A stretch of 64,000 nucleotides of DNA from Lysobacterales bacterium 66-474 (GTDB taxonomy: Bacteria > Pseudomonadota > Gammaproteobacteria > Xanthomonadales > Rhodanobacteraceae), in NCBI GenBank assembly GCA_001899805.1, contig MKWP01000010.1, positions 1 to 64,000 of the forward strand, given 5' to 3'. The notes under the pieces are model-generated. The model worked only from the letters and a program-made list of their open reading frames with translations, made no database searches and was not told the origin of the DNA. Below are positions 2,312 to 61,686 of the stretch, piece after piece. How positions within the stretch are numbered: the first letter of the stretch is position 1; every line of letters begins with the position of its first letter. A program made the position numbers and the translations under genes.

Positions 2312-3108
2312 GCGCGCCGCGCGCCATTGCAGTGGCCGGCATCGGCGCGTGGATGCAAGGCGCACCCGACTGGCCCGCGTTGCGCGGCGTGTTGCGCGGC
2401 GAACATGGCCTCGCCGGGGACGCACCCGCCAAACCGGCCGCCAACGCCTTGCCCGCGGCGGAACGCCGGCGTGCCCCCGACGGCGTGCGCCTCGCGGCGG
2501 AAGTCGCGACGCAGGCCTGCGCGATGGCGGGCTGCGATCCAGCCACGTTGCCCTGCGTATTCGCCTCCACCCACGGCGAACTCGCGATCACCGATTACGT
2601 GTGCGAAACCCTCGCGCGCGCGCCGCTCGAACTGTCGCCCACCAAGTTCCACAACTCGGTGCTGAACGCGCCCGCGGGCTACTGGACCATCGCCACCGGT
2701 TGCACGGCGGCATCCAGCGCCGTGACCGCGCACCACGCGAGTTTCGGCGCGGGCCTGCTGGAAGCCCTGGCGCTGGCTGCGGCGGACGACACGCCGGTGC
2801 TGTTTGCCTGCTGCGACGTGGCATCGTCCGGGCCGCTCGCGGAAATGACCCGTACCACGCTCGCGTTCGGCGTCGCGCTGGTGCTGTCGCCGGCAGCGGC
2901 CGGCGGCGCGCGCCTGCGCTGGTCCTTGCACCACGGCGACGCCGCTGCGCTGCCGCCCGCGGCGATGGCTTTGCGGACCGTTGCGGGCGACAATCCGGCC
3001 AACGCGCAGGCACTGGCGCTGCTCGCCGCGATCGCGGATCCACCTGCGGCCAGCCTGCACCTGCCGCTGTCACCGGAATTGTCACTGGACATGGAGATCA
3101 CGCCTTGA
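2308..3108 (+). CDS. Ketosynthase-like chain length factor (N-terminal KS domain only)
   Basis: The product is 266 residues and resembles the beta-ketoacyl synthase N-terminal family (Ketoacyl-synt_2) found next to the KS in aryl-polyene clusters. At the site matching the KS nucleophile (TACSSSA) it reads TAASSA, so the cysteine is replaced by alanine. It also lacks the two C-terminal active-site histidine motifs. It is therefore expected to be a non-catalytic partner that heterodimerises with the preceding KS and shapes chain length. ATGA overlap with the KS upstream and TTGA coupling with the glycosyltransferase downstream support co-translation. The CLF role is inferred from family and position. 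Confidence 0.82.
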
Positions 3109-3944
3109 GCGATGCCACCGCCCGACCCTGCGTGGTCATCCCCTGCCTCAACGAGGAACGGGCCATCGGCGCATTGCTGCAGGCGGTGCTGGCGCATTGC
3201 CGCGACGTGATCGTGATCGACGACGGTTCCACCGATCGCACCGCGGAGATCGTCGCCGCGTTGCCGGTGACCCTGATCCGGCATCGCGAACGGCGCGGCA
3301 AGGGCGAGGCGCTGCGCGCGGGTTTCCGCGAAGCGCTGAAGCGCGGAGCCAGCGGCGTGCTGACGATGGATGGCGACGGCCAGCACGATCCGGCCGACAT
3401 CCCGCGCCTGCTCGACGCCGCGCGCCGGTTCCCGGATGCGTTGATCGTGGGCGCACGCATGCTGGGCCGCGAACGCCAGCCGAACGCCCGCCGCCGCGCG
3501 AACGACTTCGCCGACTGGGGCATCAGCTGGGGCTGCGGCCAGCCGGTCGCCGACACCCAGAGCGGCCAGCGCTGGTACCCGCGTGCGGCGGTCGAGCTGG
3601 TCGACCCCGGATCAAGTCCGGGGCAGGCACTGCCGGCACAAGGCTTCGTGTTCGAGGCTGCGATCCTGATCGCCGCTTCGCGCGACCTGCGCATGCCGGT
3701 GGTGTCCGTTCCCATCGCCTGCCGCTACGACGACACGGCGCGCCACAGCCACTTCCGCCCGGTGCGCGACGTGCTGAGGATCACCTGGTACACGTTCCGG
3801 CGTGTGGTGCATTACGGCAGCGTGGTGAAGAGCTACCGTGCTTCGCACGACAGCCCGCCCGTCGTGCACGACCCCGACAACCGCCTCGGCCTGTCGCCGG
3901 AATCCCTGCCGCGGATGGGCGATCCGCCGCCTGCGCAGGATTGA
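3105..3944 (+). CDS. Family 2 glycosyltransferase in pigment operon
   Basis: This is a 279-aa GT-A enzyme with CVVIPCLNEERAIG at the N-terminus, the nucleotide-binding VIDDGSTDRT and the metal-binding TMDGDGQHDP. The ORF-track entry is N-terminally overextended. The likely start is TTG at 3105, overlapping the upstream TGA as TTGA. Such glycosyltransferases occur in aryl-polyene/xanthomonadin clusters and probably modify the lipid or sugar head of the pigment conjugate, but the substrate is unknown. Residues about 165-178 (VDPGSSPGQALPA) are encoded by a palindromic element also found between genes at 26377-26400, so this segment looks like a repeat insertion kept in frame. Confidence 0.85.
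   Translation: MSDATARPCVVIPCLNEERAIGALLQAVLAHCRDVIVIDDGSTDRTAEIVAALPVTLIRHRERRGKGEALRAGFREALKRGASGVLTMDGDGQHDPADIPRLLDAARRFPDALIVGARMLGRERQPNARRRANDFADWGISWGCGQPVADTQSGQRWYPRAAVELVDPGSSPGQALPAQGFVFEAAILIAASRDLRMPVVSVPIACRYDDTARHSHFRPVRDVLRITWYTFRRVVHYGSVVKSYRASHDSPPVVHDPDNRLGLSPESLPRMGDPPPAQD
3605..3628 (+). repeat. Palindromic repeat (family E) inside glycosyltransferase coding sequence
   Basis: CCCCGGATCAAGTCCGGGGCAGGC contains the perfect stem CCCCGGA/TCCGGGG around TCAAG. The same 24 nt occur in inverted orientation between genes at 26377-26400. Here it is read in frame as DPGSSPGQA. Confidence 0.8.
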
Positions 3945-26376: not shown

Positions 26377-26400
26377 GCCTGCCCCGGACTTGATCCGGGG
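26377..26400 (-). repeat. Palindromic repeat family E, intergenic copy
   Basis: GCCTGCCCCGGACTTGATCCGGGG is the exact inverse of the segment inside the glycosyltransferase gene at 3605-3628. Confidence 0.8.
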
Positions 26401-32823: not shown

Positions 32824-33010
32824 TCGTCATCCCGGGGCTGGCCGCGCCGTTTGCGGACAGAACCCGGGATCGGTGCCGGCGGGGGCGGACACCGATCAAT
32901 CGAAACCGATTGCGGATCGCGCTGCGCGCGTCCGGAATGACCACCATGGGGGCTTCTTGCTCGTCATTCCGGGTTCCGATGCGATGGAGCCGCGTCGGCC
33001 CCGGAATGAC
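32824..33010. repeat. Intergenic repeat family A, copy 1 (split)
   Basis: CGTCATCCCGGGGCTGGCCGCGCCGTTTGCGGACAGAACCCGGGATC and, further on, CGTCATTCCGGGTTCCGATGC...CCCCGGAATGAC are halves of the element seen whole at 37274-37398. The 329-bp folE/MFS gap holds this and no gene. Confidence 0.75.
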
Positions 33011-37187: not shown

Positions 37188-37273
37188 TCTCACTTCGCGA
37201 CGCCGGTTCTGCCGGCACGTGGCTTGCACCGGCCTGCCTGATCTTCTTTCCACTTCCCGGGTCAAAGAAACGT

Positions 37274-37398
37274 CGTCATTCCGGGGCTGCCCGCGCTGTT
37301 TGCGGACAGAACCCGGAATCCAGCTCTTGCGCCGGTACACGAGAAGCTGGATTCCGGGTTCCATCGCCGATGAAGCAGGCGATGGCCCCGGAATGACG
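37274..37398. repeat. Nested inverted-repeat element family A, complete copy (MITE-like)
   Basis: Terminal arms CGTCATTCCGGGG (37274-37286) and CCCCGGAATGACG (37386-37398) pair perfectly over 13 bp. Inner arms GAACCCGGAATCCAGCT and AGCTGGATTCCGGGTTC pair over 17 bp. The 125-bp unit occupies the gap after the DUF3014 gene. Halves of the same unit lie at 32824-33010. Confidence 0.85.
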
Positions 37399-58420: not shown

Positions 58421-59809
58421 ATGGCAGACGTTCACGAGGCGAAGGTGCCGGACATCGGCGATTTCCAGGGCGTGCCGGTGATCGAGGTCATGGTCAAGCC
58501 CGGCGACCATGTCGACAAGGATCAGGGTCTCGTCACGCTGGAGTCGGCCAAGGCCACCATGGAAGTCCCGGCAGAGTTCGCGGGCACCGTGAAGGAGGTC
58601 AAGGTCAAGGTCGGCGACGAGGTTTCCGAGGGCAGCGTGGTCGCGACGATCGAGGCCGAAGCGGGCGAAACCGCCAAGGCGCCTGCGCCGAAGCCGTCCC
58701 CCGAAGCATCCACTTCCTCGAATCAGAGTCCTCCCCCGGCACAGCGGGGGGAGGTGCCGAAGGCGGAGGGGGGCAACAAGCAGCCACCCCCATCAGCCCT
58801 TCGGGCAGCTTCCCCCGCAAACGGGGGAAGCGAACCCACGGCCGAGCGTCGCGCACCTCCGGTTCCGTTCGACGCCGATTCGATCATGCCCGACAAGGTG
58901 CCGTACGCGAGCCCCGCGGTGCGCGCGTTCGCGCGCGAACTGGGTGTGGACATTGCACGCGTCAGCGGCAGCGAGCGCGGCGGCCGCATCACCCGGGAAG
59001 ACGTGCAGCAATTCGTGAAGTCGGTGATGGCGGGCGGCGGCGCACCTGCCGCCGGCGCGGGAGGCGGCGGGCTGAACCTGCTGCCATGGCCGCAGATCGA
59101 CTTCACCAGGTTCGGCGAGGTCGAGACCAAGCCGCTGTCGCGGATCAAGAAACTGTCCGGCGCCAACCTCGCGCGCAATTGGGCAATGATCCCACACGTC
59201 ACGCAATTCGAGGACGCCGACATCACCGACCTCGAAGCCCTGCGTGTCGCGCTCAACAAGGAAAACGAGAAGGCCGGCATCAAGGTGACGATGCTCGCGT
59301 TCCTGATCAAGGCCTCCGTCGCCGCCCTGCAGAAATATCCCGACTTCAACGCTTCGCTCGATGCCTCGGGCGAAAACCTGGTGATGAAGAAGTATTTCAA
59401 CATCGGTTTCGCCGCCGACACGCCGAACGGACTTGTGGTGCCGGTGATCCGCGACTGCGACAAGAAGGGCGTGCTGGACATCGCGCAGGAAATGTCGGCG
59501 CTGGCGAAGAAGGCTCGCGACGGCAAACTGACACCGGGCGAAATGTCGGGCGGGTGTTTCTCGATCTCATCGCTGGGCGGGATCGGCGGCACCATGTTCA
59601 CGCCGATCATCAACGCCCCCGAAGTGGCCATCCTCGGCGTCTCGCGTTCTTCGACAAAACCCGCATGGAACGGCAAGGAATTCGAGCCACGACTGACCTT
59701 GCCGTTGTCGCTTTCCTACGACCACCGCGTGATCGATGGCGCCGCCGCCGCACGCTTCGCCGTTTACCTCTCGCAACTGCTCGGCGACATGCGCCGGGCC
59801 TTGCTGTGA
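58421..59809 (+). CDS. aceF: Pyruvate dehydrogenase E2, dihydrolipoyllysine acetyltransferase
   Basis: The 462-aa core of the PDH complex transfers acetyl from lipoyl-Lys to CoA. It has one lipoyl domain (VTLESAKATMEVP, Lys modified), a linker, an E3/E1-binding domain (YASPAVRAFARELGVDIARVSGSERGGRITREDVQQF) and the catalytic domain with SYDHRVIDGAAAARF (His and Asp). The linker (about 100-150) is SNQSPPPAQRGEVPKAEGG and PPPSALRAASPANGG, encoded by a G/C-rich intergenic-repeat sequence also in the E3 gene. E1 (aceE) is not in the window. The E3 gene starts 14 nt later. Confidence 0.95.
   Translation: MADVHEAKVPDIGDFQGVPVIEVMVKPGDHVDKDQGLVTLESAKATMEVPAEFAGTVKEVKVKVGDEVSEGSVVATIEAEAGETAKAPAPKPSPEASTSSNQSPPPAQRGEVPKAEGGNKQPPPSALRAASPANGGSEPTAERRAPPVPFDADSIMPDKVPYASPAVRAFARELGVDIARVSGSERGGRITREDVQQFVKSVMAGGGAPAAGAGGGGLNLLPWPQIDFTRFGEVETKPLSRIKKLSGANLARNWAMIPHVTQFEDADITDLEALRVALNKENEKAGIKVTMLAFLIKASVAALQKYPDFNASLDASGENLVMKKYFNIGFAADTPNGLVVPVIRDCDKKGVLDIAQEMSALAKKARDGKLTPGEMSGGCFSISSLGGIGGTMFTPIINAPEVAILGVSRSSTKPAWNGKEFEPRLTLPLSLSYDHRVIDGAAAARFAVYLSQLLGDMRRALL
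58728..58833. repeat. Repeat family H within the E2 linker
   Basis: CTCCCCCGGCACAGCGGGGGGAGGTGCCGAAGGCGGAGGGGGGCA and CTTCCCCCGCAAACGGGGGAAGC are hairpin-forming segments read in frame. GGGGGGAGGTGCCGAAGGCGGAGGGGGGCA is repeated exactly in the E3 gene at 60146-60175. Confidence 0.85.
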
Positions 59810-59823
59810 CGCGGGAGGACGAC

Positions 59824-61686
59824 ATGGCCAACACGATCGAACTCAAGGTCCCCGACATCGGCGATTTCCAGGACGTCCCGGTGATCGAGGTGATGGTCAA
59901 ACCCGGCGACCGTGTGGAAAAAGACCAGGGCCTGGTCACGCTGGAATCGGCCAAGGCCACGATGGAGGTGCCCGCGAGCGCGGCGGGCGTCATCAAGGAA
60001 GTGAAGGTGAAGGTCGGGGACAACGTGCAGCAGGGTACGGTGGTTGCGGTTGTCGAAGCGGAAGGCGATGCGCAAGCATCGCCCTCATCCCAGCCTTCCC
60101 CCGCAAGCGGGGGAAGGAACCAATCTGTCCCTCCCCCCGCGCCGCGGGGGGAGGTGCCGAAGGCGGAGGGGGGCAGCACTTCGCACGCCCCACCCCCATC
60201 CCAACCTTCCCCCGCAAGCGGGGGAAGGAGTCAGTTCGCGCCGCAAGCCGCCACGGCAACCGGCCGCAAGGCCGACATGGAATGCGCGATGCTGGTGCTG
60301 GGCTCCGGTCCCGGCGGTTACAGCGCGGCGTTCCGCGCCGCCGATCTTGGTCTCGACACGGTCCTGGTCGAGCGCTACGACACACTCGGCGGCGTATGCC
60401 TCAACGTGGGCTGCATTCCGTCCAAGGCGCTGTTGCACGCGGCCGAAGTGATCGACGCGGCCGAAGGGATGGGCGCGCACGGCATCGCGTTCGGCAAACC
60501 GAAGATCGATCTCGACAAGCTGCGCGACTTCAAGGACAAGACCGTCGGCAAGCTCACCGGCGGGCTCACGTCGATGGCCAAGCAGCGCAAGGTGCGCGCG
60601 GTGCAAGGCGTCGGCACCTTCGTGTCGCCGCACGAACTGGAAGTCGTGCATGGCAAGGACAAGAAGCTGATCCGCTTCGAACAAGCCATCATCGCGGCCG
60701 GCTCGCAGGCCGTGCGCCTGCCGATGTTCCCGTGGGACGACGAACGCGTGATGGATTCCACCGGCGCGCTGCAATTGCGCGACGTGCCGAAAAGCCTGCT
60801 GGTGGTCGGCGGCGGCATCATCGGTCTCGAAATGGCGACGGTGTACCGCGCGCTCGGCAGCAACGTCACCGTGGTCGAGTTCATGGACCAATTGATGCCC
60901 GGCGCGGACGCGGATCTGGTGCGCCCGCTCGCCACGCGGTTGAAGAACCAGGGCGTCGCGGCGCACCTCAAGACCAAGGTCACCGCCGCCAAGGCGCAGA
61001 AGAATGGCATCACCTGCGAATTCGAGGGCGACAGCATTCCGGAGAAGAAAACCTTCGACCGCGTGCTGGTGTCGGTCGGCCGCAGCGCCAATGGCAACAA
61101 GATCGGCGCCGACAAGGCCGGCGTCAGCGTCACCGAGCGCGGACTGATCCCGGTCGACACGCAGATGCGCACGAATGTCCCGCACATCTTCGCGATCGGC
61201 GATCTGGTCGGCCAGCCGATGCTCGCGCACAAGGCCGTGCACGAAGGTCATGCGGCGGCGGAAGCCGCGGCCGGCCAGAAACGCCACTTCGACGCGCGCG
61301 TGGTGCCGTCGGTCGCGTTCACCGATCCGGAGATTGCGTGGGTGGGCGTCACCGAGCGCGAGGCCAAGGACAAGAACCTCGACATCGGCGTCGGCAAGTT
61401 CCCATGGGTGGCGTCCGGTCGCGCATTGGGCATGGATCGTGCGGAAGGTTTCACCAAGCTGATCTACGACAAGGCCACGCACCGCGTGATCGGTGGCGGC
61501 ATCGTCGGCGTGCACGCCGGCGACTTGATTTCCGAAGTCGCGCTGGCGATCGAGATGGGCGCCGAGATCGCCGACATCGCGCTCACCATCCACCCGCACC
61601 CGACCCTCGGCGAATCCGTCGGCATGGCGGCCGAGGTGGCCGAAGGCACCATCACCGATTTGTACATTCCCAAAAGGAAAACCTGA
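59824..61686 (+). CDS. lpdA: Dihydrolipoyl dehydrogenase E3 with N-terminal lipoyl domain
   Basis: The 620-aa E3 re-oxidises dihydrolipoate with FAD and NAD+. A lipoyl domain (VTLESAKATMEVP) comes first, then a repeat-derived linker (SQPSPASGGRNQSVPPPAPRGEVPKAEGG, PPPSQPSPASGGRSQ, about 83-148). The flavoprotein core follows: LGSGPGGYSAAFRAADLG, the redox disulfide GGVCLNVGCIPSKALL, VVGGGIIGLEMATVYRALG and the dimer-partner base HPHPTLGES. A lipoyl-bearing E3 is known in this group and in Neisseria. ATG 59824 follows GAGGACGAC. Confidence 0.95.
   Translation: MANTIELKVPDIGDFQDVPVIEVMVKPGDRVEKDQGLVTLESAKATMEVPASAAGVIKEVKVKVGDNVQQGTVVAVVEAEGDAQASPSSQPSPASGGRNQSVPPPAPRGEVPKAEGGSTSHAPPPSQPSPASGGRSQFAPQAATATGRKADMECAMLVLGSGPGGYSAAFRAADLGLDTVLVERYDTLGGVCLNVGCIPSKALLHAAEVIDAAEGMGAHGIAFGKPKIDLDKLRDFKDKTVGKLTGGLTSMAKQRKVRAVQGVGTFVSPHELEVVHGKDKKLIRFEQAIIAAGSQAVRLPMFPWDDERVMDSTGALQLRDVPKSLLVVGGGIIGLEMATVYRALGSNVTVVEFMDQLMPGADADLVRPLATRLKNQGVAAHLKTKVTAAKAQKNGITCEFEGDSIPEKKTFDRVLVSVGRSANGNKIGADKAGVSVTERGLIPVDTQMRTNVPHIFAIGDLVGQPMLAHKAVHEGHAAAEAAAGQKRHFDARVVPSVAFTDPEIAWVGVTEREAKDKNLDIGVGKFPWVASGRALGMDRAEGFTKLIYDKATHRVIGGGIVGVHAGDLISEVALAIEMGAEIADIALTIHPHPTLGESVGMAAEVAEGTITDLYIPKRKT
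60083..60230. repeat. Repeat family H within the E3 linker (three tandem units)
   Basis: CAGCCTTCCCCCGCAAGCGGGGGAAGG, CCCTCCCCCCGCGCCGCGGGGGGAGGTGCC and CAACCTTCCCCCGCAAGCGGGGGAAGG are successive hairpins translated as PSPASGGR, PPPAPRGEVPKAEGG and PSPASGGR. Confidence 0.88.

Follow-up and report, generated by a model that had tools for sequence, protein, structure and literature searches.

A 24 bp segment within a glycosyltransferase gene of Lysobacterales bacterium 66-474 very probably records the recent insertion of a small, non-autonomous, REP-like palindromic element, CCCGGATCAAGTCCGGGGCAGGCT. Comparison with orthologous sequences establishes the insertion itself, and we infer that a dedicated enzyme carried it out. 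The window, that is, the whole stretch of DNA analysed, is 64 000 nucleotides long.

The insert in the glycosyltransferase gene

The gene (Table 1) encodes a GT2-family enzyme, the fold of which resembles ArnC and dolichyl-phosphate mannose synthase in structure matching. Homologues are present in all 148 family genomes searched, and the named relatives are mostly metagenome assemblies of Rhodanobacteraceae. Its neighbours are two genes for ketoacyl synthases and one of FAD/halogenase-like type, a setting that would probably make this an aryl-polyene or xanthomonadin-type cluster, judging by the families involved.

A sequence-only reading had described a 24 nt palindromic repeat at 3605–3628, CCCCGGATCAAGTCCGGGGCAGGC, in frame within a glycosyltransferase and the exact inverse of an intergenic segment at 26377–26400. 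The frame and the inverted pair are both confirmed, the two copies being 100% complementary over 24 nt. The palindrome proper is shorter: 19 nt, with stem arms CCCCGGA and TCCGGGG of 7 bp, followed by CAGGC as an unpaired tail. This core occurs twice in the window compared with 0.04 occurrences expected from shuffled sequence. The genome survey that had been proposed, made with pattern searches and targeted stretches, found seven exact cores, a number that rises to 12 if one mismatch is allowed; the reversed pattern, used as a control, gave no exact match.

Of the decapeptide VDPGSSPGQA, which had been assigned to the repeat, the eight residues PGSSPGQA are repeat-encoded, while V and D are the gene's own. 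In the closest orthologue (genome G024, 89% identical) the stretch that corresponds to ELVDPGSSPGQALPAQGF of the window is ELVD-LPAQDF, and exactly PGSSPGQA (24 bp) is missing. A clean eight-residue gap is found at this position in every family orthologue fetched. The span between fixed residues is 27 residues in the window protein and 18–21 in 108 of 108 other homologous loci, a pool of two collections in which some species are possibly counted twice. Orthologues without the repeat that have the same residues were sought as counter-evidence to an insertion, and there were none among the 108. At the DNA level the empty site reads GAC^CTG or GAT^CTG. The insert is identical to other genomic copies save for its last base, whereas synonymous sites of the gene differ from those of G024 by about 0.26 per site (about 26%) and dN/dS is about 0.15, so that on sequence grounds the insertion would be either recent or well kept. 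The gene as a whole is under constraint and is intact, its reading frame uninterrupted despite the insert.

In an AlphaFold model of the protein (mean pLDDT 85) the insert lies between helices 160–166 and 182–194, with pLDDT below 50 at residues 170–173. The DGD motif occupies residues 89–91, in agreement with the earlier placement of the segment in a surface-like stretch after the catalytic DGD. Since 24 bp correspond to eight codons and the unit is open in five of its six frames, most landings would be harmless to the reading frame; here the landing place is in addition a low-confidence inter-helix loop. The insert is thus probably a tolerated, neutral extension of that loop, the retention of the 24 bp is most likely neutral and the enzyme is probably still active.

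The same reading had counted three genes in the window with repeat-derived protein segments, and this holds. In the PDH E2 gene and the lipoyl-domain E3 gene it is the linkers that derive from repeats, but from other ones (CCTCCCCC...GGGGGGAGG and CTTCCCCCGCAAGCGGGGGAAGG), a family different from that of the 24 bp element. Two further intergenic repeats, at 32824–32871 and 37273–37320, are 92% identical, start with CGTCATYCCGG, end with AACCCGGRATC and look like CGTC-tagged elements.

Table 1. Features in the window, and genes and repeats of related genomes with filled and empty sites
Feature	Position	Strand	Details
GT2-family glycosyltransferase gene	3105–3944	+	TTG start, 279 aa; Pfam Glycos_transf_2, E = 1e-24
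Palindromic core CCCCGGATCAAGTCCGGGG	3605–3623	+	19 nt: 7 bp stem, 5 nt loop
24 bp insertion CCCGGATCAAGTCCGGGGCAGGCA	3606–3629 (equally 3607–3630)	+	PGSSPGQA, residues 168–175; missing from all orthologues
Unpaired tail and right target flank, CAGGCA-CTG	3624–3632	+	Family consensus CAGGCTCTG
Second element copy, inverted	26377–26400	-	Intergenic; sequence match to 3605–3628
PDH E2 gene	58421–59809		Linker with in-frame intergenic-type palindromic repeats
Lipoyl-domain E3 gene	59824–61686		Linker with in-frame intergenic-type palindromic repeats
CorC			Unit CCCGGATCAAGTCCGGGGCAGGCT; filled in G000 and G056; orthologues without unit
ThiC			Unit CCCGGATCAAGTCCGGGGCAGGCT; filled in G119 only; orthologues without unit
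Penicillin acylase			Unit CCCGGATCAAGTCCGGGGCAGGCT in another reading frame (SPDQVRGRL); filled in G129 only; orthologues without unit
GAGCGCAC-CCTG-TGCGCGA			Intergenic repeat, GTAG-type REP; 7 filled (in another genus), 12 empty; 24 bp difference
GGATTCGGG-CCTG-CGGCCCG			Intergenic repeat; about 7 filled, 2 empty; 24 bp difference
CGTTTGCAAT-CCTG-CAAACGC			Intergenic repeat; 2 filled, 8 empty; 24 bp difference
CCCCCTCAC-CCC-AACCC			Intergenic repeat, entered at CCC, not CCTG; 3 filled, 5 empty; 24 bp difference

Filled and empty sites

About 104 distinct copies of the element were read in the genus, several of them inside genes. Three further genes, which the earlier reading had not noted, have base-exact empty sites in genus orthologues, each differing by exactly 24 bp or eight amino acids. 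In all four genes the orthologues without the insert read C^CTG (GACCTG in relatives of the glycosyltransferase, CorC and ThiC; GCATCCTGC in the acylase). The filled site equals the empty site plus 24 bp, with an ambiguity of at most 1 bp and no longer duplication. Because filled and empty pairs from genes and from intergenic repeats agree on 24 bp, the mobile unit can be defined from these alignments as CCCGGATCAAGTCCGGGGCAGGCT, with a one-base ambiguity at its ends. The target would nearly always be C^CTG, entered between the first C and CTG. CCTG begins at 0.70% of positions in the window, and four of four sites would be expected by chance with a probability of about 2e-9, for a pattern that was spotted post hoc.

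The CorC insertions of G056 (L252) and G000 (L253) occupy the same site in species that lie apart in the gene tree, a possible hotspot. A single ancestral insertion common to both finds no support in the gene tree (0% of 200 bootstrap trees), but this tree is weak and parallel insertion is only suggested.

Other genes show more complex arrangements. Penicillin acylase (L310–L313) carries in several species a second, different repeat-like insert, PGSSHVPVLAGT, which is duplicated in G084, and in G129 the 24 bp element landed within it. The RecD gene of the genome under study (L289, C7:90171-91964) contains a copy read in reverse (EPAPDLIRGR) within a longer, hypervariable, repeat-derived linker; RecD of relatives has other inserts or none at this position. 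In G056 a copy near the 3' end of a gene (L118, contig C7) is associated with an apparent early stop (GDYPGSSPGQA*).

Exact cores were found in 30 of 148 family genomes, representing 12 of 26 genera, and within the genus the number of copies per genome ranges from 0 to 23 at no more than one mismatch. In a phylum sample of 399 genomes 19 had core matches. The other 18 all come from one other class, and none of the sampled genomes of the same order or class outside the family contains the core. In that other class TGACG, which is complementary to CGTCA, comes after many of the copies; this would be expected of CGTC-tagged REPs, described mainly from Alphaproteobacteria (PMC3733652).

The unit also enters other repeats. 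The loops of three CCTG-type repeat families, GTAG-type REPs among them, host it. In GTTGGGC/GTTGGGT hairpins (GTAG-type REPs; L342-L356, L066, L083 and others) the core palindrome replaces the usual loop, which has the look of an exchange of loops and not of an insertion at CCTG. Thirteen copies have outer arms of at least 7 bp, against 3.4 expected and a maximum of nine in 200 shuffles, with repeat families partly responsible. The excess of elements within hairpins is real and driven in part by these families.

Candidate modes of movement

A putative dedicated enzyme would act on single-stranded DNA, recognize the hairpin together with CAGAGCCTG on its 5' side (lower strand) and join it at C^CTG, after the mode of REP movement proposed for HUH/Y1 transposases. 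Enzymatic, site-specific joining is indicated because the ends are constant and the target is common. The chances seem to us roughly even that the complete scheme is correct, in which such an enzyme joins, at C^CTG, a 24 bp mobile unit that ranks with the smallest known, and in which this unit nests in loops belonging to other REPs and serves as a frame-neutral eight-residue cassette that yields frame-dependent peptides. The repeat family entered at CCC and the resemblance of GTTGGGC-type copies to loop exchange count against the C^CTG insertion model, as do the negative transposase searches described below.

The main rival of enzymatic joining dispenses with a dedicated enzyme: the 24 bp would have been copied from an existing copy by template switching or microhomology-mediated repair, with CTG(C) as the microhomology. 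Donor copies mostly end in CAGGCTCTG and targets start with CTG, hairpins stall replication and a profile search found no Y1/RAYT transposase (PF01797) in the genome itself. Such copying is, however, expected to give variable ends and to carry donor flanks along, whereas the ends are base-identical in every case, across the four genes and as many repeat families. We regard it as possible but tentative.

A resident RAYT was rejected as the mover, since the genome has no PF01797 and no exact element lies beside a Y1 gene of the genus. Y1 genes occur in seven of 16 genus genomes, at 13 loci, and the exact element is missing from all the fetched flanks of these loci; PF01797 is also missing from G129 and G056, both of which have in-gene copies. 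An ordinary REP may instead have been moved in trans by a RAYT that has since been lost from the lineage or is supplied by relatives. Size, hairpin and tail are REP-like, and some members of the genus possess Y1 genes. TnpA-REP enzymes cut beside the hairpin at CT dinucleotides (PMC8266576), and CT is also the pair of bases that closes the unit on its top strand. Set against this, the unit has no GTAG tag, its genome has no Y1_Tnp and none of the genus Y1 genes is flanked by the exact element, which makes movement in trans rather unlikely.

Selection of the insertion for an altered enzyme is very improbable: the region is otherwise conserved in length, but the unit also resides in unrelated proteins in different frames, and the low-confidence prediction for the segment is what a flexible loop would give. 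That these are old functional residues matched by chance in an intergenic region, for which an intact and constrained gene might speak, can be dismissed given their absence from all 108 homologues, the exact 24 nt match and the dispersed exact copies.

Relation to known palindromic elements

Intragenic palindromic elements are as a kind already known, as Rickettsia palindromic elements (RPEs) and as intragenic GTAG or CGTC REPs. RPEs are palindromic repeats inserted, without loss of frame, into functionally unrelated genes, as summarized in PMC10969869 (citing Ogata et al., 2000, 2002). With the unit described here they share the in-frame position. In the glycosyltransferase, CorC, ThiC and the acylase the unit is missing from orthologues and is, in this functional sense, an RPE-like protein-coding palindromic element. 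Compared by size and description, RPEs were first reported as about 150 bp long in Rickettsia, while the present unit is 24 bp, occurs in Rhodanobacteraceae relatives and has a CCTG target.

CGTC-tagged REPs are short stem-loops without a dedicated transposase that occur mostly in Alphaproteobacteria and can lie in genes (Di Nocera et al., 2013; PMC3733652). The short stem-loop, the loop of 5 nt (4–5 nt in CGTC REPs) and the lack of a dedicated transposase are common to both, and copies of the core palindrome are also present in another class of the phylum, where TGACG often follows. In contrast, the unit has no unpaired CGTC, TGTC or CCTC at either end (lower-strand flank CAGAGCCTG; consensus CAGGCTCTG). 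Its stem is 7 bp, CCCCGGA/TCCGGGG, and has no AT pair at the base, where CGTC REPs have 8–9 bp of which the first two are AT pairs; its tail is CAGGCT and it inserts at C^CTG. Nesting of REPs inside other palindromes is on record (PMC3733652).

GTAG REPs with their RAYTs are likewise REP-sized mobile palindromes. They carry a GTAG tag, whereas the 24 bp unit has no GTAG beside its hairpin and no resident RAYT, and uses GTAG-type hairpin loops as targets; a REPtron, with a cognate RAYT flanked by the element, is likewise lacking in its genome and at the 13 genus Y1 loci. The joining of a single-stranded hairpin is a possible parallel with TnpA-REP systems (PMC8266576). In Opitutus terrae, Rickettsia conorii and others, intragenic REPs encode residues inside conserved proteins (PMC3733652). 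More than half of those are dimers or clusters coding for 20–30 residues, whereas here single eight-residue units have base-exact empty sites. The unit also differs from a MITE, which has terminal inverted repeats and a target-site duplication from a parent IS: its filled sites show at most the 1 bp ambiguity and no longer duplication. In a literature search of limited breadth we found no match to the element sequence or to DPGSSPG, and no description of the 24 bp unit size, the C^CTG target or the nesting in GTAG-type loops.

How transposase-less REP-like palindromes spread, and whether their movement continues, is a question posed for the CGTC superfamily (PMC3733652). The present family offers base-exact filled and empty gene sites, a candidate target, C^CTG, and close genomes with 0–23 copies, and therefore makes the question testable. 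It also provides clean cases in which mobile DNA has lengthened conserved enzymes, ThiC and CorC among them, by a short peptide and left them unbroken, and the 24 bp unit behaves like a mobile element that ranks among the smallest known.
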